DNA of 64,000 nt, taken from NCBI RefSeq assembly GCF_037975245.1, contig NC_092563.1, positions 29,971,960-30,035,959 on the forward strand. The letters run 5' to 3'. Made by a program: the position numbers and the translations under genes. The notes below the pieces were generated by a model. That model saw only the letters and a program-made list of their open reading frames with translations. It had not been told where the DNA came from and did no database searches. Source of the DNA: Apostichopus japonicus (taxonomy: Eukaryota; Echinodermata; Holothuroidea; Aspidochirotida; Stichopodidae). Below, piece by piece: positions 14,960 to 51,115 of the stretch (its first letter is position 1; each line of letters begins with the position of its first letter).

Positions 14960-16900
14960 ATTTGACCCCAAAATACGAAAACTTCCTGTAATGAATGTTC
15001 TATGTCAAGTACGAAGTTTGCATGATAAGGTTCTTTGGACATTCGAATAAGAATGCCTTAATTTGCATATGTTATTCATTCAATATAAAAGCATAGCGTG
15101 CTACATTCCAAAGCAGACCAAGATTGAAATTTACATTATACAGTTGCCATTGCGTTTGTCTGTCATTCGAGTTACTTTGCAGTTGTTAGGTTTGTTCACA
15201 GGGACCGACGCCACATTGTACTCCTTCATACCAAATATTAGTTCTGCCCAAGGTTCCAATATCAAGATATCATGTTTACAAGGTTTTCACAATTTGACCT
15301 ATGATGACCCAAAATGACCTCCAAAAAAAGCCAGTGGGCTTATTGTGATTCCTTGGAATTGAGATTATAATCCCAAGCTTTAATATCACATTGAACATAC
15401 ATTATAATGTACCCGTTATCTGGCAACACCTTCACACAAAGTATGATTCAATTCTGAAAATGTTTACATTTGACCCTGTGACCTCATTATTATTCATGAG
15501 ATGAGCACCAGAATTAATAGGGTTCATCTACTCACTATGGCACATGTATGTACCAAGTATGAATTCAATCTAACTTGTCGTTGTTCGGATTACCATGTTT
15601 AGTGAAAAAAACTTAAGCCCTGCCCCTAATAAATGTGCATAATATCAACTTGAACATATATCACTATGTACTCGATATCTACCAACATATTAATATTAAG
15701 TATAAATAAATTATAAATTCCTAATAAATTATTAGCATTTGAAGATTTTTACGTTGACCCCGTGACCTCATTATTATTCATGAGATGAGCACCACAATCA
15801 ATAGGGTTCTTCTACTCAGTATGGCGCATATATGTATCAAGTATGACTTTAATCCAACTTCTCGTTGTTCAGTTAACGTGTTTACAAGCTTAAGTTTATT
15901 TTCACTAAAATATATTTTAGTGAAAATAAACTTAAGCCCCGCTCCCTTCTAAATATGCATAATATCAATTTGAACATGTTACAATTTACCCACTATCTAC
16001 CAACATATTAATACCAAATTTGAATTAATTCTGACTTTTGGTTGCAGAGTTATAAGCATTTGGAGATTTTCACATTTGACCTTGTGACTTCATTATTATT
16101 CATGAGATGAGCACCAAAATGAATAGTTCATCTACCTGTACTCACTATGGAGCACTTATGTACCAAGTATGACTTCAATCCAACTTGTCTTTACTCAGTT
16201 ACCGTGTTTACAATCTATTTTAGTGAAAATCAACTTAAGCCCCGCCCCCAATAAATATGCATAGATCAACTTGAACATATTTCACCATGTAACCGTTAAC
16301 TACCAACATATTAATACCAAGTGTAAATAAATTCTGACCTTTGGTTGGGGAGTATTAGAATTCGCAGACTTTTACGTTTGACCCCGTGACCTACTTACTA
16401 TTCATAAGATGAGCACCAAAATCAATAGGGTTCTTCTCAGTATGGCGCATCTATGTACCAAGTATGACTTCAATCCAATTTGCCATTGTTGAGTTATCGT
16501 GTTTACAAGCCAAGGGCGTCACATACACACACACATACACACGCGATCACTATCGTATAGATTCCTTGAACCCCGGCAAGGAATCAAAAAGGCTTCTTGT
16601 ATTCTACGTACTCATAAGCCTATTAATGTGGTATTCTATGTACTCATAAACATTAAATGAGATCTGCCCAAGCTTACCTTGCGTGCTTTCAAAGTTTTCA
16701 CAATTTGAACCTTGGTGACCCCAAATGACCTTTGACCTCCACAAAACCTCATTAAATCAATGTTCTACTTCTACACACCAAATATGAAATGGGTCCGACC
16801 TTCCCTTCTTCAAATAGCGTGTTTAATAGCTGGGCGTCACAAACGCACACACTCGAGCCATCATATATGCAAAGGTTACATTATCATCGAACCCAATTAA
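14960..16900 (-). repeat. Dispersed repeat with three ~310-bp internal tandem units (reverse copy of 45.8-47.1 kb)
   Basis: Phrases such as CATTATTATTCATGAGATGAG, ACCAAGTATGACTTCAATCC and CTTAAGCCCCGCCCC recur about every 310 bp near 15.49, 15.78, 16.09 and 16.39 kb. The same units occur in reverse complement at 45.8-47.1 kb. A hairpin around TTCCTTG...CAAGGAA marks one end near 16560. No coding potential seen. Confidence 0.85.
15888..15937. repeat. 50-bp perfect palindrome
   Basis: GCTTAAGTTTATTTTCACTA and its exact complement meet at AAATATATTT with no spacer, at the junction of two internal units of the dispersed repeat. This looks like a head-to-head join of the conserved CTTAAGTTTATTTTCACTAAAATA end. 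Confidence 0.95.
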
Positions 16901-37000: not shown

Positions 37001-40000
37001 ATGTATATATGCCATCAGCTTAACATTAAAGATATAAAGAACCAGATATTGGGAGCACTTTCACAAATGGCCTGTTCAAAACCGGTGCCAAGTGAATAAA
37101 GGCGGTTGCATTTGAAGCAATGAGGCTTAGCAATCTGGAGGTCCTGGGTTGACTCACGGTGGGGTCATAGTGAGGCACATGGTTTTATCCAAGAGCAATC
37201 TGTGGTTTTCCCATCTGAAATGACTTTCTAAATTGAAATGATTCCAAATTTGCGTTAAAATGTCGAATTGGCAGCCACCTAATGCGAAAGTTGTTAATCC
37301 ATAAGCCTCTGCATGGTACTCCCACAATCACTAAAAGCATCTTAAAAATAATTGCCTGAATGATTATAAACTGTCATAATGAGTTTATCGTGAAAACTAT
37401 CAGTTTCTGGTATCTGTTCCATAATTTCCCAAACTCGGTCCTTGAAATGTGGGTTTTTTTTTTTTTTTAAGCAAACAGACCATTATGTCTCAATTTGTAT
37501 GTATTTTTTTTTTGTGCCCATATATAGATGGAGGGAACAAAGCTTCCAAGGCCAGAGCCGAACTGCCAGACAGAGAGAGCCACATTTGCACTCAGCTGAT
37601 TTTGGTTCCCCGAGGCACAGTTTGGCTGTGCCCCGGGGGTGGTCCGCACCCGAGTTGGTTATACTGGCGGTGATAAAAAGCTGCCAACTTACTACAGCAT
37701 GTAAGGACACTTTCATTTGGGGTTTTTTCTGTTTTTAATTGGTAGATGGACTAGACAGATATGGAGAGAATGTGACAGGTACTATACTCTAAAGCTGTAT
37801 TTTGTTATTTGCTACAATCTTATCTGGCCATGCCTTACTGAGCATGAGTTGGAAAGAGGGTATACCTGGAAACATGGTCTGTAACTTAAGTCCACCAAAA
37901 TGGCACCAGTAAATATGAATTGAATTGGGCTTAATAACATATTCTAGTGAAACCAAACAATGTACTTATATATGTGGGATTTTGTTGGATTAAAATGGTT
38001 AGTAAATTCCTAGTTAGGCATGTTCAATGACATGGTCATAACAGCGAAGATGATCGAGGCGGAATGAACAGGTGTTCAATTATGTATGATTTCTAGCTTG
38101 GCCAAAGTGTGACAAAAGATTGATGCTACAGAACACAAACTGAAGCTTTCACTAATTGCGTGTAAGCTATATCGGTAAAATTGATGTTACAGTTTCGTCG
38201 ATAGTTGAGGCTCGTACTGCACAGTACACACCAGGCTACAGTATATATCACACTGTTAGTCCTTGTCTAGTCTGCACAGTACACACCAGGCTATAGTATA
38301 TATCACACTGTTAGTCCTTGTCTAGTCTGCACAGTATACACACCAGGCTACAGTATATATTACAGTTAGTCCTTGTCTAGTCTGCACAGTACACACCAGG
38401 CTACAGTATATATTACACTGTTAGTCCTTGTCTAGTCTGCACAGTACACCCCAGGCTACAGTATATATTACACTGTTAGTCCTTGTCTAGTCTGCACAGT
38501 ACACACCAGGCTACAGTATATATTACACTGTTAGTCCTTGTCTAGTCTGCACAGTACACACCAGGCTATAGTATATATTACACTGTTAGTCCTTGTCTAG
38601 TCTGCACAGTACACACCAGGCTATAGTATATATTACACTGTTAGTCCTTGTCTAGTCTGCACAGTACACACCAGGCTATAGTATATATTACACTGTTAGT
38701 CCTTGTCTAGTCTGCACAGTACACACCAGGCTATAGTATATATTACACTATTAGTCCTTGTCTAGTCTGCACAGTACACACCAGGCTATATATATTACAC
38801 TATTAGTCCTTGTCTAGTCTGCACAGTACACGCCAGGCTATAGTATATATTACACTGTTAGTCCTTGTCTAGTCTGCACAGTACACACCACGCTATAGTA
38901 TATATTACACTATTAGTCCTTGTCTAGTCTGCACAGTACACACCAGGCTACAGTATATATTACACTGTTAGTCCTTGTCTAGTCTGCACAGTACACACCA
39001 CGCTATAGTATATATTACACTGTTAGTCCTTGTCTAGTCTGCACAGTACACACCAGGCTACAGTATATATATATATATTACACTGTTAGTCCTTGTCTAG
39101 TCTGCACAGTACACACCAGGCTATAGTATATATTACACTGTTAGTCCTTGTCTAGTCTGCACAGTACACACCAGGCTACAGTATATATTACACTGTTAGT
39201 CCTTGTCTAGTCTGCACAGTACACACCAGGCTACAGTATATATTACACTGTTAGTCCTTGTCTAGTCTGCACAGTACACACCAGGCTACAGTATATGTTA
39301 CACTGTTAGTCCTTGTGTAGTCTGCACAGTACACACCAGGCTACAGTATATATTACACTGTTAGTCCTTGTCTAGTCTGCACAGTACACACCAGGCTATA
39401 TAGTATATATTACACTGTTAGTCCTTGTGTAGTCAACGAGTTGACTGTTGCTGAGTGCACTTTTAGTTGTCATGCATGGCTAAGAGTATTGTTTAACTGT
39501 AATGAAGAAGAAAAAAGCACAATGATAATATAAAAAAATACAGTGTTAGTTGCTGGTTCTGCTTCTTTGTGAGTATACCTTTGATCCAGACAGTTTGCAA
39601 TAAAGAAAAAAATATTTGGTCTGCTTTTTCATTGTAATTTCCTTTCAAAGTATGAATCATGCTGAGACCCAAAAGTCCACCATATTGTTAGTTTCTCAAT
39701 TATAATTAACCCTATCAATAGAATGGCTTTTGGCATGAATAATATTTCTTTAATCAATTTTTCTCATCTATTGCCCAATGGGTACAACCATGTTTACCCC
39801 CCCCCCCCCTCTCTCCCTTTCTCTCTATCCCATAAAGGCCATGTATAAAATAGCTTTTTTGACAAACCTTTCGCATTAAAATAATGTGATAAGAGTGTGA
39901 TAGAAGTGACATAGTAGCTGAACAGTTGTATGCTAGTATTGGTTAATGCAAATATTATATTATCCCACCATGTATGTGTGCTGTAAACTTAAAGAATTCA

Positions 40001-43000
40001 TGATATCGACATACCTCTGGAACTACTTCATTCTGGTAAAATTAACCCCCCCAAAAAAAACAGCACACAAAGTAAAGGAAGTCAAATTTGCACTACTTTG
40101 TTTATTAGGCGTATGTACTTTGTACAGTAGATGTAAGGAGCTATAATGGACAGGAAGGAGATACTTGCAGTTTCACTTCTTAAGTGTTTGAATTGAAACT
40201 AATCATTGGAACACTGTTTCATGTTTATTTGTTACTGTAATTGAGGAAGTTCCGTTCAAACATATCTTTCATAGTAGCAGTGACATCATTAATCGTGTAT
40301 CTTTATGAATTGGGATGTTCAGTAGGGTTTTAAGATTCCAGTGGGGTTGTTTGTATATGAGAATAGAAGTACTTTTATGCTTTATGCTTTTGTGGTTTAT
40401 GAATACATTGTGGATACTATATGCAAACAGTGAGTTGGAATCCTGTGTTGAAAGGATTTTTCTACATTGACGTCAGAATATGACAACTATATTGAATAAA
40501 AGTAGAATGGAATAATAAACTTGATGACTCACTATTACTCCTACTCAGTTACTAGCACTGAATTACTAGTACTAAGTACAGAATTAGACCTGTGCTAGAT
40601 ACACTGATAGTACTACACTGTTTCAAATAATCGGAGACAAAATTTCTAGTTTCATTTCAGCAATGATTAACTACATTTACATTGAATGTCAGTGATTTTC
40701 ATGTGTTTATTTGCATGCAGGTTGTTAGATGTATTGATTATAAGTTCTTCTTGTTACTGTATATGGTTGTTAGCTTGTACATATCTGATAAGACTGAAAG
40801 CAAAAACAATATCTGCAATGACATAAAAATGTGCAATGTTGACATATTACCACCCAAAATGATAGCTGCCATTTTTGTTTTAAATTTCAATATCACCTTA
40901 AATTGACTTCTATCTTTTATCTATATTATAGATAGTTTTTGCTGATTCATTATCTAGCTAAATGTCAAACCCCTACAGTTGAGCATTACATTAATCACCA
41001 AACCATGATGTAGCAACTGTTCACATACATTGAATATTCACTTGCCATGTATGTGCCTAATTGCTTCCCTTCCAGTGACATTTCATTTGAAATGGGTGTG
41101 TTATGCTGATGACACAGTATCCTACGGGAGAACTTAAGGGACATTTCACTGACGGTTTATTCACAAGCATCATTAAAATTTATAGATTAAAATTAGATTA
41201 AATGAGAGAATCACTTCTGCATCACTGTTTTCCTCGATTAGCTCTTTTCGTATTGCAGAATTACTCTTTGACATCTGCAGTTTGATGTGCAGGGAAAGAA
41301 AATTGATAGCTGAAGGAAAACTTGTTTCCCTCAAAAGTATTTGGGTAACATTCCATTATTTGATGCTTGGCAAGATGTTCATACATTACAGGGTGTACTT
41401 AATATTCAATTTTCAGATTCCTATGGTTTTTGCCTTATGAGTAAGTCACCAGTACAGATGGGCCGTCAATCATACTTTTAGTTATCACCAACAATGAATA
41501 AATAAGGCATTAGAAAAGTGCACACATAGCAGCTGTTTGAGGTCCATTTCTAACATTTCATGTCTCACTTTGAATTACCATCACCCTCAAGTTGCAGTAC
41601 TACTAATGCGGTGTGGGCTGGACAAGGTCTCATTGGCCTAGGGCTTTGGTCTCTCTACTGTAGGTGGACCATGGCTTAAATTCATCATGCAGAAGATTTA
41701 AAGGTTCATGAAAATAAAACTCAGCCGGCAATCTTGCATTAATAGTGTATTAACATTTAGCACCCTAATCGACCGTGAGCTTGAGCACTGGCCTACCCTG
41801 CACGTTGCTCAATTTAGCTAAAGTGAGATTTTGATTTTGTCTGGCTCTTTGCTCCAACAAGTATTTTTCTCTTCACTCCATAGAAATTTAATTACAACCC
41901 TGGCTAGAATTAACACTTCCAGGTTACATATGTTTCAAACTGAGCTGGCTTTCTCTTCATCTTTAATACCGTTTCTGACAGCAACACTAATAGATCTTGT
42001 TTTGAAATAGGGAAATAGGGTGTAAATAGGGTGTAAATAGGGTGTACATAGGGTGTAAATAGGGGTATGCTATGCTCCAAACACAGCAAGCAGATCTCAG
42101 AGTCATCCATAGATGAATAACTTGTTTTTGATGTTGGCTAATTGTTAGCTAGCTTTCTGACATCCATCCATCCATCTGCCATCTTTCACAGACTGCCTGG
42201 TTTTATTCGTTTTCTTATTAGGGGGGACCACACTGAAACGGTCGATCTCGAGTTTGACCCTTCAGAGACCAGCTACGAGGATCTGCTCACCATGTTCTGG
42301 AACAACCACGACAGTACTTCTTGCCACAACAGACAGTATATGTCGGCCATCTTTTTCCATGGTGAGGAGCAGAAGGCACTCGCAGAGAAGACGAGGGATG
42401 AACACCAGAAGACCTTGAAGAGGAAGATTCAGACAGTGATCAAACCGGCTGAGACATTCTACGATGCTGAAGAGTAAGTAGAAACAACCACAGGATTCCA
42501 ATGGTTTCTAGAGTTGGTGGGTTTAATACCATTTAACAACAATTCTGAACTTCATGAAACGTGCACTGCTGCTGTAACATAAACTTTGAAATACTTCAGC
42601 AGTTAATAGTGGGATTAAGTAGGAAGAGATAGGGGGGGGCCATTTTGATTATATGTTACACAACAACAAAGTTCTGACTAATGAAAAGTGAAACTGTGAG
42701 GCAGGGTAATGACTAAGTGGAAGTGAGACCAGGGCACTTGCACCCATGATAGAGATTTGATTCAAACTTCAACTCTTCCCCACCTCACTCACCCCTGTCA
42801 TCTTAATACCTGACTTAACCATTGCTTTTGATGATATGTAGCACTTCTCTTTTACCTGCCTTAGTATAATCTGTTACCAGAGCAATCAGGTAACCCTTCA
42901 ATCTTCCTGGCCTCCCACCCCCCCCCTCCCCCAACCCCAATGCCCATTCTGGTGAAGTACCATATCTGGTCTAGCGATTAATTTTCATTTTTTCATCCTT

Positions 43001-43492
43001 TATACAATCTTATTGCGTACAGTTTGCTTGTAAAATATGTGATCCTTGTCAGCTTTCACCCCTTTCACTCTGATGAAGAAAGGCTGGTATCTCACAAATC
43101 ATAGTCACCTTTAAACACGGGTAGTCTTCTAAAATGGTGACAAATATATTAAAATCCCTCTCTCAAATATATACTACTATAGATGGAGGCATAGAAACGG
43201 TACTGCATGATTTCCGCACTGCTATTATGTCAAATGTTAATTCCGTCTTGTCGACACATCTCATTCCAGCTACCATCAGAAGTACATGCTCCGTCAGCAC
43301 CGCTCCCTCCTGCAGAGTTTGAACTTTGCCCCCAAGGAACTGATCAAATCTCACTCCGCTGCCCGTCTCAACGGATACGTGGCTGGCTTTGGCAAGAAGG
43401 ACAACTTTGAGAAGGAGGTGGAGGTGCTGGCTCTGAACGATGAGCAGGCTAACTATGTCAGGAGTGTTCTTGGCAGAGGTGGTAGACATTAA
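34081..43492 (+). CDS. MSRA: Selenocysteine-containing peptide methionine-(S)-S-oxide reductase (MsrA)
   Basis: MsrA reduces methionine-S-sulfoxide in proteins using a catalytic Cys or Sec. Four exons join in phase: 34081-34113, 37528-37700, 42222-42473 and 43270-43492 (681 nt, 226 residues plus stop). Residues 30-45 read ATFALS-Sec-FWFPEAQFG, aligning the in-frame TGA (37597-37599, residue 35) with the catalytic Cys of GCFW. VRTRVGYTGG, GDHTETVDLEFDP and FYDAEDYHQKYMLRQH are further MsrA blocks, and splice borders fall cleanly between them. Exon 1 encodes MGSSVGKSSTK, a good N-myristoylation signal; a start at ATG 37528 is also possible. No Cys lies in the C-terminal 74 residues, so the usual C-terminal resolving Cys is absent; Cys 45 and one in exon 3 remain. 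A SECIS-like hairpin follows in the 3' untranslated region. A broken gene is the alternative, but everything else is intact. Confidence 0.85.
34289..34320. repeat. Perfect 13-bp hairpin
   Basis: ACCATGGAGCTAT and ATAGCTCCATGGT are separated by six bases inside MsrA intron 1. No further context suggests a function. Confidence 0.9.
37085..37210 (+). repeat. tRNA-related SINE-like fragment
   Basis: GAGGCTTAGCAATCTGGAGG followed by TCCTGGGTTGACTCAC resembles a worn A-box/B-box pair (intact B box would be GGTTCGANTC), then a unique tail. It lies 320 bp upstream of the Sec-encoding exon of MsrA. Confidence 0.4.
37597..37599 (+). other. In-frame TGA read as selenocysteine
   Basis: The codon lies between AGC and TTT in GCACTCAGC-TGA-TTTTGG, at the position of the catalytic cysteine in MsrA proteins. 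A single base change from TGT or TGC explains it, as for other Cys/Sec pairs. Confidence 0.85.
38217..39434. repeat. 55-bp minisatellite, about 22 copies
   Basis: The unit runs CTGCACAGTACACACCAGG, CTAYAGTATATATTACACTG, TTAGTCCTTGTCTAGT. Copies differ by only a few bases (CTACAG/CTATAG, CACTG/CACTA, occasional extra TA pairs), which suggests recent expansion. Located in MsrA intron 2. Confidence 0.97.
39435..42221. other. Remainder of MsrA intron 2
   Basis: No exon supported. Low-complexity AT-rich intron. A four-copy GGGTGTAAATA repeat lies at about 42006-42065, shortly before the acceptor TTTTCTTATTAG at 42221. Confidence 0.6.
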
Positions 43493-45780
43493 GAAGCATT
43501 TATCAAAAGCAGAACATATTTTATCACAGATCGACAGAGGTTTATAGTTGATTATTCTTAGGTGTATAATTAATTAATAAAATCATCTTCTCTATGCCTT
43601 TTGGGGGAGAGGAGGGATGGTAAAATGGAGGGGTGGGAATAAACAGGGTTTAATAGTGTGTCCATTGGTTCTAAAGAGGCTATCATGGTACTATGCACAA
43701 CAGAAGGAGAAAGGACTAAAACAGAAAATTATTTTATATATTGTCTGATTGTCATTGACAAATCTTTCTTAAATCAGTAACCATCCCTTTCTCCTTGTTC
43801 ATGTTGAAGTGTGTGCTTTCATTGGAAAAGAAGTTTCCTTAAATTAAGATGTTAAAGAAAAATAGTTTTGTTGGTGGAATGTGATCTGGGGACTGCTTAA
43901 GATCTTTATCTGCTGGTGTCGTTCAATATTTTCTGAATTCTTAAAATAACCGGAAATTTTGCAATAACATTACAAATCTTTAACTTTGTTGTTCATTTCA
44001 CAACCATCAAGTATATATTTTCAGAAAATAGTTTCAAATTAAGAAAAATTATGTATTGGGAATGATAGATATTTAGAAGCTTCATTGTACTAACTTAGTA
44101 AACCTTGATTTGACATGCTTTCATTTAATTTTTTTTTCACTGTTGCCCAACAGAAAATGGAAATAAGAGGGGGAGTAATAATTGCTGAATCTGCTAGCAT
44201 TGGGGACAAGTTTTGCTTGATCTGGGGTTTTACCTGAATTGAAGTTTAGTAGACAATTATAGCAATGAGCAGTTTTAATTAAACTGGTATTGCCTGTAAC
44301 TGATACCAGATTATTGATGCTATATTGGGTAAATTCTTATGACTTCCAGCCATACCCCCATTTCCTTTCACATCTTTAGGACCAAATGCTCATTGACACC
44401 AGGAAATGGTAAAACGTTGTCACCAAAAGCAGTTTAAAGTTTGTAGCATTTTGGCAATGCCATGCCAGAATATCAAGCCCTGAGGATGGAATACTTCTAA
44501 ACTCCCTGATCAATGAGACTCAAACATAATAGAAATTCCTTACCTGTCAAAGTTGATGTGATTTTGAGCTTTGTCACAAACACATTTCTTCTATTTTTTC
44601 TCTGTCGAAACAGTAATATCTCAGGTGTTTTTGTGGCCAACTATCAAAATGTAGGAGTGAAAATCTAGTCTTTCTGGGAAATATATGAATAGAAAATTTG
44701 GTTAAGTGGGATATTTTTTTGTTACAAAGTTAAATGTTTTGGTCTAAACTGTCCTTGCAATTATGTGATCTATTTACTTGATGTCTGCTTTGTTTCTTAT
44801 TTGTACTCGTTAAGTTTATTCAGAGCTGCTTAATTTTTGTCATTGAACCTCTTTCACTGATGATCCCAGTAGGTCAAAGGTCAAACTATATGATGTAGTG
44901 AGGTTAAACCAAGAACTCTTGGAACCAATCTATGGATGCTCTGAAGTGCCCTCTGACTTATTTCATTGCTGAAAGAGTTTCAAGCAAAAGTTTTAAGTAA
45001 GCTATATATATGATTGAATTTCAACTAAATATAGAGAAAATCTCTTACTATCTTTGCCTGTGGTTTTCTTTTTACTTATTTGTTTATTTTTTGCTTCTCA
45101 GTATTTGGTGATACATTACTTTATTCTTTGAAACTGGAACTAAAAGTGAACATAAGGAACTCCTGTTTTGTGTTTACAGTAATAAATTGGCATTGCAATG
45201 CAAGCAGGGGGCTGTTATGTACCGTCAACATGTAAAGAGGTTGTTAGGTCATTGACCTTGTTGTTTGTCAATGCTTTCTGACCTTTGGACATTACTTGGG
45301 TCATCCAGAGACAGGTTGGTCCCCGGGGATAATTGTTACAGGGTCCACTTTATGAAGGAGAATTGTCCTTGGGGCTGTATCCTATGACCTTCCCTACCTC
45401 CCACCTCATCACCACACCTCCCCCCTCCCCCTCTCTTGTCAGCACCTGATACTACTAGTGTTTTGAGTTAATAAATCTTCAACATCTCGGATCAATCAAG
45501 CAAAATCATTAGACTAAACAAGTTAAATCACATTCTCGTCATCTCACCACAAAAGCAATATAGAACCACAAGTCTCGGAATTAAACATTTTCACATTGAA
45601 TGTAAAATATCGCTGAAGGCAAATGGTGCAAAACTCTACCGGGACTGATCTTGTTATTCATATCAATCTAGAATTATATTCATCCAACTACAGTCAAATT
45701 GATAAAGGATTATTTGTAAGATGAACCAGAGCGTGGACTACCAGGGATGAAATTGCCATATTATCAAAAGCTCAATTTGT
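43493..45780 (+). other. MsrA 3' untranslated region and downstream flank
   Basis: No further coding exon supported. An AATAAA lies close after the stop (about 43577: TTAATAAAATC) and another near 45180-45184 (AGTAATAAATT); a transcript carrying the SECIS candidate would have to use the later one. Confidence 0.45.
44881..44960 (+). promoter_or_regulatory. Candidate form-2 SECIS element of MsrA
   Basis: Core ATGA at 44890-44893. Twelve bases follow (44894-44905), then AAA at 44906-44908, then a mini-stem CCAAG-AACT-CTTGG (44909-44922). The returning strand AACC...CTATG pairs with TGTAG...GGTT around a 3x3 internal loop, ending at GGAT (44934-44937), which supplies the GA of the quartet. The ATGA-to-AAA distance, the mini-stem above the A-rich bulge and the opposing GA are what a form-2 SECIS needs. 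A lower helix can form between AGGTCA (44871-44876 and again 44878-44883) and TGACTT (44954-44959), but it is weaker. It lies 1.4 kb after the MsrA stop, on the same strand. Confidence 0.7.
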
Positions 45781-47420
45781 TTATATGCAACCATGTCCTT
45801 TAATACCCATGACTGTTTGGTTTCGATGATAATCGTAACCTTTGCGTCCATGATGGCCTATATGTGTATGTGCGTTTGTGACGCCCAGCTTGTAAACATG
45901 ATATCTCATGGAGGGAAGCATGGGCAGATCCCATATTTGGTTTTTAGATGTACCAATATCAATTTTAAGGAGCCTATTTTTGATTCCTTGCACAAAGGCT
46001 CAAGGAATCTATGTGATAGTGATTGCGTGTGTTTGTGTGTGTGTTTGTGACGCCCTTGGCTCGTAAACAGGATAACTCAACAATGGCATGTTGGATTGAA
46101 GTCATGCTTGGTACATAGATGTGCCATACTGAGTAGAAGAACCCTATTCATTTTGGTGCTCATCTCATGAATAATAATGAGGTCACAGGGTCAAACATGA
46201 AAATCTCCAAATGTTAATAACTCCGCAACCGAAAGTCAGAATTTATTCATACTTAGTATTAATGTGTTGGTAGATAGTGGGTACACGGTAACATATGTTC
46301 AAGTTGATATTATGCATATTTATTAGGGGGCGGGCTTAAGTTTATTTTCACGAAAATAGCATGTAAACATGGTAACTGAACAATGACAAGTTGGATTGAT
46401 GTCATACTTGATACATATATGCACCATAGTGAGTAGAAGAACCCTATTGATTTTGGTGCTCATCTCATAAATAATAATGAGGATACGGGGTCAAACATGA
46501 AAATCTCCAAATGCTTATAACTCCGCAACCGAAATTCAGAATTTATTCATACTTGGTATTAATGTGTTGGTAGATACAGGTGATCATGGTAACATATGTT
46601 CAAGTTGATATTATGCATATTTATTAGGGGTGGGGCTTAAGTTTATTTTCACTAAAATAGCTTGTAAACACGGTAACAGAACAACGACAAAATTGGATTG
46701 AAGTCATACATGGCACATATATGCACCATAGTGAATAGAAGAGTCCTATTGATGTTGGTGCTCGCCTCATGAATATTAATGAGGTCACAGGGTCAATTGT
46801 CAACATTTTCAGAATTGAACCATACTTTATGTGAAGGTATTGGTAGATAGCCGGTACATGATAATGTATGTTCAATGTGGTATTATGCACATTTATTAGG
46901 GGGCAGGGCTTGAGTTGATTTTTGCTAAAAATAGCTTGTAAACATGGTAAGTTAACATAATTAGTAGGTACGTCCACAGTCAGTGAAAGAACCTTGCTGA
47001 TCAATTTAATCAACAATGACGAAAGCTTGGGATTATAATCCCAATGGGCAAGGAATCACAATAAGCCCACTGGCTTAATTTCTGCATGGTTAAATGTACC
47101 ATATCAAATTTAAGGAGCCTATTGTTGCTTTTGGTGGAGGTCATTTGAAGTCAACAAATGCCAAAACATTTCTTTTACTCCCCTCTTACCTGTCTCTTTA
47201 CACTAACACACCTTCCTAAACATAATATCGCAAGGGAAGCTAGGAGCCTAGAACAGATCGCATTTTTGGTATGTAATTGTACCACATTGAGCACAAGAAG
47301 CCTAGAATTCCTAGCAGATACGTTTTTTACAATCATATATAGCGCCCTCACTACATTAGGCCAAAGCGGGAGAATACAAAGATTTTGTTTATAAATAAGA
47401 CACTCAGCTTTCAGCTGAGC
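45781..47420 (+). repeat. Dispersed repeat with three ~310-bp units, inverse of 15-17 kb
   Basis: Units start at about 46060, 46370 and 46665 with GTAAACATGGTAACTGAACA-like phrases and contain TAATAATGAGGTCACAGGGTC. The far edge (GCTTGGGATTATAATCCCAA near 47025) matches the reverse of 15360-15380. Cys- and Val-rich open frames here come from (GT)n and repeat sequence. Confidence 0.88.
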
Positions 47421-49497
47421 AATGGCGACCGTGCGATTTAGCCGAAATTCTGTCAATTTTTGCCACCATGTTCGATTGACTGCCATTTCGTCACGGTCTT
47501 TTTTTATTCGATTTGGTTCAAATTCCGTCAGCGGTTTGTGTGAATTAGTACATGCGATGTTTTATAAATTTGAAGGGCATTTGAGGTCACGAGAGGTCAT
47601 TACAGAAAACGTTAAAAATGCTACTCCTCCTAGAGCGTTCATCCAAGCTTGCTGAAATGTGGGGATACATTTGAATGGTGGTGAATCAAAGTTGTTCAGG
47701 AAAAATATTATTGTCGTCCTATGAGGGCTCAAAACAGGGCCTTATGTAAAGTTTTCAGTTATGATGAAATGTAGACCACATATTATATGCAATGATCGTG
47801 AAATTCTTTTCAAATTTTTAGTATTCATGACCAGTATACGTTTTGGTTTGAGTAGCAAAATGTCTTTCCATCTTAATTTTTCCGACATTTTTGGAGATAA
47901 TTCCAGCCGGGCGACTCTTGATCAAGTCAAATATATACCTGTCATTCAGGCGTCCTACCAAGTTCGACATGTCATTCTCTGTAAAAAGGGCCACTTGGCA
48001 GATTTGCATTTTGAACTTATCAACAATTTGTGTGTGGAATACGACATATGTTAGAATGACTTGAGAGCTGGTTCCAACTTTTTCTGACGTTTCTCTGTGG
48101 TAGGTCGATTGAAAACAAGTTGCAGGCCGTTCTATTATCGTATGGATGCAATTTTCGTGAGAAACTTTTGGTTTAGCACAATTCAAACGTGATATCCACA
48201 ACATTTTAGCAGAGAAATACTTTTTGTACGTTTCGTTCTATTGGCATGAATGAAAACTACGAACTTGAGTGCATATATATACTGTCGGTTCTATGCTTTT
48301 GTAATGAGGCATATAGTTTACCTATAGTAATAATGACAACGTTTTATTGCATAAAATAAGTTTGTGACAGTGTTTCTACTGCGAAGGCAATTTTATTGAA
48401 TACGAAAATATTGGCGACGACCAAGGGGCGGTTCATACACACCCTAGGGTAATTAGGGCTAACAGCCATTGAAATCCGTCTATTTAGGGAAATATAGTCA
48501 TCGGATTCAAGATATGTAGCGGCGCAATTCTAGGAAATTCGTTCTTTAATGTGGAATCACTGGTTATTGATCCCAACTTCAATGCCATGATCATGTGTCG
48601 AACATGTGCTACTTCCTTGTAAAACAATGGTTGCCCATGATGAATCCGACCGCTACGCAACACATTAGCATATCTCAACAATCTAAATAAGGCATCAGCG
48701 TGGTGACGTCATGGTCAAGTATAGTGCAGTGCGGTTAATTGTCTTTGTTATCATAACCACATTTTTTACCGCGCCTGCTATACGGTAGTACATTTTGTTT
48801 GGTTTCCCGAAAGGGAAAACTGTGGATTCACTCTTACCGACCTTGCAAAATTCTGAAAGGGGGGGGGGGGGGGAGGGGCGGAATTAGCAAAGTCGGCAAT
48901 GACTATAGGGCGGAATTAGCAAAGTCGGCAATTACCATTACGATTAGATATGTTTCAAACATCAGCATACAGAAACAGAAACGTATTCAAATCCGAAACC
49001 AAAGTGAAGTACCTCACTTCCTTTTGTCGAAACATTTCATACTGTATATACTTTTGATTTTTATATAGAACTGTACAACCCTACCGAAAACTTCTTTCAA
49101 ATATGTTAGCGTTTTAGATAACTTATAGATATATCTGTGCCTTTGTTAAGAATTTTCTTTGTTTCGTTGATAACTATTAATGATGTTTTAAAGTTTGTCC
49201 CTCTTTGCAAAATTTTGGATCATAAACAAATCTTTCAAATAGAGGCTAAGCTGAGCTTCTGTAGTATTGCTTCTCTCGTTGAGTAAATTTACTCAAACCT
49301 CGTGAAATTTTTAATTTTACCGTGCAGTTGAGTAACATTTTACCGTGCAGTTGAGTAACATTTTACCGTGCAGTTGAGTAACCAGCGGGCAGGAGGGATG
49401 AGATAGACGGTTCCCAGATCAAATTTTTACCGTTGTATCCACTGCTTGTAAAATAAACTTGGTTGGCATTGCATACACAAGATCATATGGGCACAAC
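47421..49497. other. Unassigned stretch with overlapping open frames
   Basis: Between 47422 and 48204 frames of 77 and 97 codons (plus) and 128 codons (minus, 48204-47818, with RPATCFQSTYHRETSEKVGT) overlap. I recognise no domain and see no splice context, so I call no gene. At 49290-49382 ACCGTGCAGTTGAGTAACATTTT repeats three times. Confidence 0.4.
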
Positions 49498-50140
49498 GGT
49501 GACATCCCTATGTTCCGACGTCTCTATGTTCCGACGTCTCTATGTTCCGACGTCTCTATGTTCCGACGTCTCTATGTTCCGACGTCTCTATGTTCCGACA
49601 AACTGTTTGGACTGTAATTTTTTTTGACCAAATTTTATTCGGATCCCATTCGTGACCCAATTTTTTTCGGACCCCATTTTTTTGGAACCAATTATTTTGG
49701 ACCAAAATTTTTCGGACCCAAATTTTTTGGGACCCAACTTTTGGACCAACATGATTTCTGACCAATTTTTTCCCTGACTCCTAATTAGGTCCCAAAAAAT
49801 TGGGTCCCAAAATATTAAGTCTCAAAAAAATTTGGGTCCCCACAAATTGGGTCCACAAAAATTAGGTCCAAAAAAAATTGGGTCCACAAAAAAATTTGGG
49901 TGACCAAAAATTGGGCCAGAGAAAAAAAGGGCCCGAAAAAAATTGGGTCTGAAAAAATTGGGTCCAAAAAGAATGGGGTCCGAAAAAAATTGGGTCACAA
50001 AAAAATGGGTCCGAAAAAATTTTGGTCAAAAAATTTTTTGAGTCCAAACAATTTGTCGGAACATAGAGACGTCGGAACATAGAGACGTCGGAACATAGCG
50101 ACGTCGGAACATAGAGACGTCGGAACATAGAGATGTAACC
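49498..50140. mobile_element. 643-bp long-hairpin element with 8-bp target duplication
   Basis: Target duplication GGCACAAC at 49490-49497 and 50141-50148. The ends are inverted: GGTGACATCCCTATGTTCCG against GGTTACATCTCTATGTTCCG. Each arm carries tandem 17-bp CTATGTTCCGACGTCT units (about six left, five right), then G/A-rich GGTCCAAAAAATT phrases. The whole segment is nearly self-complementary about a centre near 49785 (CTAATTAGG). Confidence 0.88.
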
Positions 50141-51115
50141 GGCACAACATGGTAGGTTGATTAGAGACCAATTTATTCCATCTTCATAATCAATCCTATT
50201 AACATCCATGGACAATGGGAGATGGACCAAAGCCGCGCGCGCAGACTATCTTTTCTTTGTGATCGAAGCGATAAGGAGCTTGAAATATATCGGTATTTAG
50301 TATTTTAATAAATAAGCCATAAAATTAAACCAGGGAACAACAGACTAGCTATATAAAAGGAATATATCTTCGCGTTGCGTGTGAGTTTTCTCCATTACAA
50401 ATATTACGCGTAGAGCAAACTTTCATGCCATGACATCCTCTTCAGAGTTGCCCGTATTTTAAATTATAAGCCATTTGATAGTTTTAACTTACTTCTTCAA
50501 GCAAATTCTGGTAACTTGATAATTATAAACAATCAGGTCCGGCGAGGGCCAGGTCGGGTTAATTATATCACAAGTGCCCCTGTTTGCACTGCTCCATTAT
50601 ATTCGTGCATATCACCCAACCCCCCCCCCCCTCCCCGCCCTCCCACATTTTCCCGGCCCGCAAATTGATCCCGGGACTGTAACAACCCCTACCAGGTCAC
50701 CCACCCACGGTCTTGCTGGGCCAAGAATTTGCCTAAGTACTGTAACTTGTACACAGTTGTTATTTCAGACCACAAGTGTGATGGCGTTTCTTATAGCTTT
50801 TATGTTGGTTATCAGACGCATTGAAGCTAGCTCAGTATAATTAGCATATAGTTTAGGACATATCTATCGATTTGTGAATTTATTTTTGGTAGATTGACGA
50901 AGTTTATGGTCTGATCAGCAAGTAGCCAATAATGTAGCTGCCTGGCTGGGTGTGTAACTGTTGTTATTTATAGACACAGGTGGTTCGATGTTACGTAGTT
51001 AAAATCGGGGATGTCACATTGTGTTACCATAGAGGTATTGTTAAACAGACGGGGAAGTTAAGAGTAAATGAAGGTTTGTTTTGCAGCAGAGCCTATGCGG
51101 GTATGGCAAGCCGTT

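Follow-up and report, generated by a model that had tools for sequence, protein, structure and literature searches.

Gene Organization at the Locus

The MsrA gene of Apostichopus japonicus lies on the forward strand of the 64-kb window, by which we mean the whole stretch of DNA that was analyzed. It has three coding exons of 173, 252, and 223 nt, which together give 648 nt and 215 residues (Table 1). Both introns are of the GT–AG type, and their phases match; the preliminary description had likewise called the splice borders and phases correct. That description had counted four exons, but three coding exons were found within 37528–43492; it had also placed the TGA at residue 35, which is codon 24 when counted from the ATG at 37528. 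The sole internal stop in the frame is this TGA (context ALS-U-FWFPEAQFG). Its position at the catalytic Cys, as had been proposed, is confirmed by the exon joins and by the alignment to solved MsrA structures. No frameshift and no second stop occur across the 215 codons, and the frame terminates at the TAA at 43490–43492.

A TAG is found in frame immediately 5′ of the ATG at 37528. A T-rich stretch with a terminal AG also lies 5′ of this ATG, and an upstream exon is therefore possible. None was identified, and the 600 nt directly upstream, read in frame, contain many stops.

Table 1. Features of the analyzed window (positions within the 64-kb stretch).
Feature	Position	Strand	Remarks
Open frame of 513 aa	9972..11513		reverse transcriptase 36.7 bits; GIY-YIG 22.7 bits (cut-off 22.6); presumably a Penelope-like element
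MsrA coding exon 1 (first identified)	37528..37700	+	residues 1–57 and two bases of codon 58; holds the catalytic TGA; open if TGA is read as U; donor GTAAGG
In-frame TGA, codon 24, catalytic position	37597..37599	+	matched to the catalytic residue in solved MsrA structures; predicted to be read as Sec
Tandem array in first MsrA intron	38217..39434		55-nt unit, about 22 copies
MsrA coding exon 2	42222..42473	+	acceptor AG, donor GTAAGT, phase kept; contains the start (residue 82) of the 100% match to A. japonicus P0006
MsrA coding exon 3 with TAA stop	43270..43492	+	encodes the helical domain, residues 164–208
Third SECIS-like stretch	T at 44514		−1.1
Weak SECIS-like stretch	44890..44937	+	−10.7 kcal/mol; ATGA, AAA 12 nt later, GGAT; about 0.35 expected in 2.6 kb
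Best-scoring SECIS-like stretch	45878..45929	+	−20.5 kcal/mol, a level reached 3 times on both strands of the window; AAA 12 nt after GTGA, the usual spacing

Family Assignment and Domain Architecture

For domain searches, U was replaced by C in the translated protein. The PMSR family of Pfam covers residues 18–153 with 137.9 bits (curated cut-off 23.7), and the C-terminal domain MsrA_helical (PF20939) covers residues 164–208 with 39.5 bits (cut-off 23.7). TIGR00401 scores 119.1 bits, above its cut-off of 108.1. The best solved relatives are the MsrA structures 4u66, 7c13, and 4lwj–4lwm, with alignments that span residues 14 to 208/209. In these structures, residue 24 aligns with the Cys of the ALGCFW motif at chain position 16. 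Cys16 is termed catalytic in the account of Clostridium oremlandii MsrA (entry 4LWK), which likewise has a two-domain plan (PMC4479559). The PMSR score, the alignment of the catalytic residue, and the TGA at this site in 68 of 79 prokaryotic relatives (from the best 80 of 553 loci) suggest that the in-frame TGA is more than a chance occurrence.

The public A. japonicus protein (P0006, 134 aa) is 100% identical to the translation over its full 134 residues. It starts at residue 82 and thus misses the catalytic exon. On the strength of this one protein, A. japonicus is the most likely source of the window. A close relative, P0002, shows 85% identity over 82% of the query, which argues against decay of the gene.

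Conservation of the Catalytic TGA

The TGA at the catalytic position is conserved in relatives. We examined the best 80 of 553 prokaryotic loci found; 79 of them align over the site, and one has no alignment there. The catalytic codon in the 79 aligned loci is TGA in 68, TGT in 10, and TGC in 1. The 11 Cys forms in this set include Haloarcula and its kin, two Thermoplasmata records, and two Atribacteria records. None of 231 pattern matches in viral contigs was a relative.

Among database proteins, the catalytic site was examined in the best 120 of 3376. Trp is written there in 53, Cys in 30, and another residue in 7, while the remaining 30 start after the site. The 53 Trp residues probably reflect a TGA translated with code 4. 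The records from Lytechinus variegatus, Amphimedon queenslandica, and Nematostella vectensis have as their first residue the one directly after the site, and that of Acanthaster planci begins one residue later. Judged from such shortened records and from those with W, the TGA appears to be conserved in animals as well. Echinoderm homologues had been suggested as a check of the site: the Lytechinus and Acanthaster records do begin just past it, whereas the TGA itself is what we infer there. With 68 TGA codons in 79 prokaryotic loci (best 80 of 553), records that start after the site, and published animal Sec-MsrA proteins, Sec is the best reading of the catalytic position of this animal MsrA, as had been claimed.

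Two database proteins, P0030 from Ptychodera flava and P0090 from Acanthaster planci, represent a Cys-type relative with the GCFWG motif and a hydrophobic N-terminus. P0090 ends in KDEL, and this relative may therefore be a secretory-pathway paralogue.

Surroundings of the Active Site

The sea cucumber MsrA has the active site S-U-F-W-F and Cys residues at positions 13, 34, and 92. We compared the flanking residues with those in the best 120 of 3376 proteins. In the 53 rows with W at the site (W-type), residue 23 is S in 48, A in 4, and G in 1; in the 30 Cys-type rows it is G in 19, A in 7, N in 3, and Q in 1. Residue 27 is F in all 53 W-type rows and in none of the 30 Cys-type rows. A Cys at positions 91–94 is present in 38 of the 53 W-type rows, in 24 of the 30 rows that start after the site, and in 4 of the 30 Cys-type rows. 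Among the best 80 of 553 prokaryotic loci, residue 23 is G in all 68 TGA loci and residue 27 is G in 62 of these 68, and both residues are G in the 11 Cys loci; a Cys at 91–94 occurs in 2 of the 68 TGA loci and in none of the 11 Cys loci. Taking these counts together, S-U-F-W-F and Cys92 are therefore traits of an animal-like Sec group and not of bacterial Sec-MsrA.

Cys92 is aligned to a Thr of the C. oremlandii enzyme (CoMsrA), five residues ahead of the conserved Tyr97. In the bovine enzyme, an Asp of the active site lies near this region. Cys92 may be hypothesized to act as a resolving thiol. The strings SUFWF and UFWFPEA gave no match in open-licence papers. The animal-type S-Sec-F-W-F signature is possibly new, and its link to Sec is not proven.

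The 122 rows of a quick tree comprised the window sequence, 93 of the best 120 of 3376 database proteins, every fourth of the 68 TGA loci (17 in all), and the full set of 11 Cys loci; in this tree, the Cys-type row P0069 carried the label "truncated". The window sequence pairs with P0002 (SH-aLRT 97) and then with Lytechinus (89), and the Acanthaster and Branchiostoma rows are nearby. This tree requires at least 8 changes between Sec and Cys and has weak support (<80) at 45 of its 119 forks. A second tree, built without the motif, contained the window sequence, the 28 prokaryotic loci of the first tree, and the 83 proteins in which the site is W or Cys. It requires 10 Sec/Cys changes. The well-supported independent Sec/Cys pairs number 2 (7 on all branches), which is not enough to reach significance. 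In these two pairs, F27 goes with Sec both times and S23, on average, in 1.9 of 2. For the extra Cys, the figures are 0.5 with Sec and 0.3 against it; it is inconsistent across the pairs, and the control for relatedness therefore gives no support for its link to Sec.

It is conceivable, though we hold it to be doubtful, that animal Sec-MsrAs share a distinct active site linked to selenium. Both glycines of GCFWG would be replaced (S-U-F-W-F), and the added Cys (92 or 93), which is near the active site in the alignment, would serve as a resolving thiol within the protein and form a selenenylsulfide, whereas the bacterial enzyme is free of thiols. A change from Sec to Cys would then require the flanks to revert, as in the Cys-type arthropod relatives. 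If S-U-F-W-F and the extra Cys prove to be linked to Sec, they would provide a sequence test that separates Sec from Cys forms, and they could be used to study how the surroundings in an enzyme shift when selenium is lost.

Search for a SECIS Element

The SECIS family in Rfam gave no match at the gathering score in the whole window, and none at E values up to 10 in 43200–50200, 45800–45960, or 43480–45700. We also used a structure scan, which was widened to short SECIS forms and then made strict with the whole-window rate taken into account. The strict scan of 43493–46100 returned three stretches (Table 1). On both strands of the whole window it returned 61, with 3 at −20 or lower and 17 at −10 or lower. 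The energy level of the weak stretch at 44890 is thus reached 17 times on both strands of the window; this is near the chance rate, and we do not take the stretch as evidence for a SECIS. No further copy of the region 44800–45000 was found within the window.

The best-scoring stretch lies inside an interspersed repeat with copies at 16874–16766 and 46020–46079. The copy near 16.8 kb is without the fold, and the segment 45842–45945 folds no better than shuffled sequences (z −0.42; 57 of 200 shuffles were equally good). For these reasons the stretch was set aside as evidence; it is probably not a SECIS. The regions 45840–46957, which contains this stretch, and 15381–16874 are one repeat of about 300-nt units in opposite orientation, with 81–85% similarity across some 600 nt. 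At 49620–50033, tandem repeats that are short and A/T-rich occur in both orientations and show matches to miRNA families far below gathering scores. These matches near 49.7 kb were rejected, as all are below gathering and located in the tandem repeats.

Thus, neither Rfam nor the structure scans (strict over 43493–46100) gave a convincing SECIS in the MsrA 3′ flank. SECIS elements are hard to find in single-sequence scans. AATAAA signals are present 3′ of the gene at 43576 (84 nt past the stop), 43638, 45181, and 45470. If the signal at 43576 is the one used, there is no room for a SECIS.

Interpretation and Alternatives

The locus is very probably a working nuclear sea cucumber gene for a selenoprotein-type MsrA with a C-terminal helical domain, in which the UGA at codon 24 is read as Sec by the eukaryotic Sec machinery via a putative SECIS. 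The gene would then be expressed and its product active with Sec in place. The selenolate would attack the sulfur of methionine-S-sulfoxide, and methionine would leave. The oxidized selenium would be reduced back by a thiol, which may be that of glutaredoxin, of thioredoxin, or of the enzyme's own Cys92.

An alternative is that the SECIS was lost in the sea cucumber lineage, so that the TGA ends translation and the gene is a recently silenced MsrA whose frame is otherwise open. The outcome of the Rfam and structure scans and the early AATAAA at 43576 are in line with such a loss, and remnants of animal Sec-MsrA have been published, among them an incomplete Capitella copy without a SECIS (PMC3473315). 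Against it, the 215 codons have neither a frameshift nor a second stop, the splice sites are intact, the flanks of the site (S23 and F27) are as in Sec-type relatives, and P0002 is 85% identical. In addition, a SECIS is often missed when a single sequence is scanned. We regard silencing by loss of the SECIS as improbable.

Alternatively, the codon may truly be TGC or TGT in an ordinary Cys-MsrA and have been turned into TGA by an error in sequencing or assembly, as 30 of the best 120 of 3376 database relatives have Cys at the site. The surroundings are of the Sec type, however, since F at residue 27 is shared with 53 of 53 W-type rows and with 0 of 30 Cys-type rows, and the records of two other echinoderms start just past the site. 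Such an error is very unlikely. Finally, the TGA might be read as tryptophan or skipped by another kind of recoding. A W is indeed written at the site in 53 of the best 120 of 3376 database proteins, but it would be the output of gene callers for TGA under code 4. Trp offers no nucleophile, as is established chemistry, and 30 relatives in the same set have Cys at the site. In the bacterial enzyme with this domain plan, that position holds Sec (PMC4479559). Such a recoding is barely conceivable.

Comparison with Known Selenocysteine MsrA Enzymes

The gene is a real selenoprotein-type MsrA in an echinoderm, and it belongs to a Sec-MsrA family that is already known from animals, algae, and bacteria. 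The preliminary description had stated that Sec-MsrA occurs in algae, bacteria, and some invertebrates and that vertebrates have Cys, and the literature agrees (PMC7539508, PMC4479559, PMC3473315, PMC4244043). MsrA is listed among the selenoproteins of Amphimedon, Trichoplax, Nematostella, Capitella, and Branchiostoma by Jiang et al. 2012 (PMC3473315), who report both Sec and Cys forms in invertebrates and Cys in vertebrates; in the main text of that paper, the sea urchin has a single mention, about SelU3. Chipman et al. 2014 (PMC4244043) describe Sec-MsrA in Strigamia, Daphnia pulex, Ixodes scapularis, and Branchiostoma floridae and propose that the ancestral MsrA had Sec, with Cys arising later in insects and vertebrates. 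SelenoDB 2.0 treats MsrA as a selenoprotein family (PMC3965025), and it ranks with the most widespread Sec proteins in algae (PMC7539508). No report of an echinoderm Sec-MsrA was found in our searches of the open-licence literature or in the main texts of PMC3473315, PMC3281104, and PMC4244043; a mention elsewhere is possible. With the present gene, the sea cucumber very probably joins the animals that have a selenocysteine MsrA.

Like the sea cucumber gene, the published Sec-MsrA genes of invertebrates (PMC3473315, PMC4244043) carry at the catalytic position a TGA that lies in frame and stands for Sec, but the main texts of these papers name no echinoderm MsrA. We compared them with the sea cucumber protein via the database rows of Amphimedon, Nematostella, and Branchiostoma. 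The vertebrate-type Cys MsrA (PDB ID: 1fvg) shares the catalytic domain (E 1.1e-25, residues 5–150). Its match stops at residue 150, so the helical domain is outside it, and vertebrate MsrA has Cys according to PMC3473315.

The Sec-MsrA of Clostridium (Alkaliphilus) oremlandii (4u66, 7c13, 4lwj–4lwm) has the same catalytic and helical domains, with Sec or Cys at the aligned position, and its Glu55 aligns with Glu63 of the sea cucumber protein. It is a Sec protein, and its activity is 20-fold higher in the Sec form than in the Cys form; it has no Cys, can form dimers through the catalytic residue, and accepts glutaredoxin as its reductant (PMC4479559). The sea cucumber enzyme, in contrast, has Cys13, Cys34, and Cys92. 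The flanks of the site differ as well: the bacterial motif is GUFWG/H (PMC13188914), whereas that of the sea cucumber is S-U-F-W-F.
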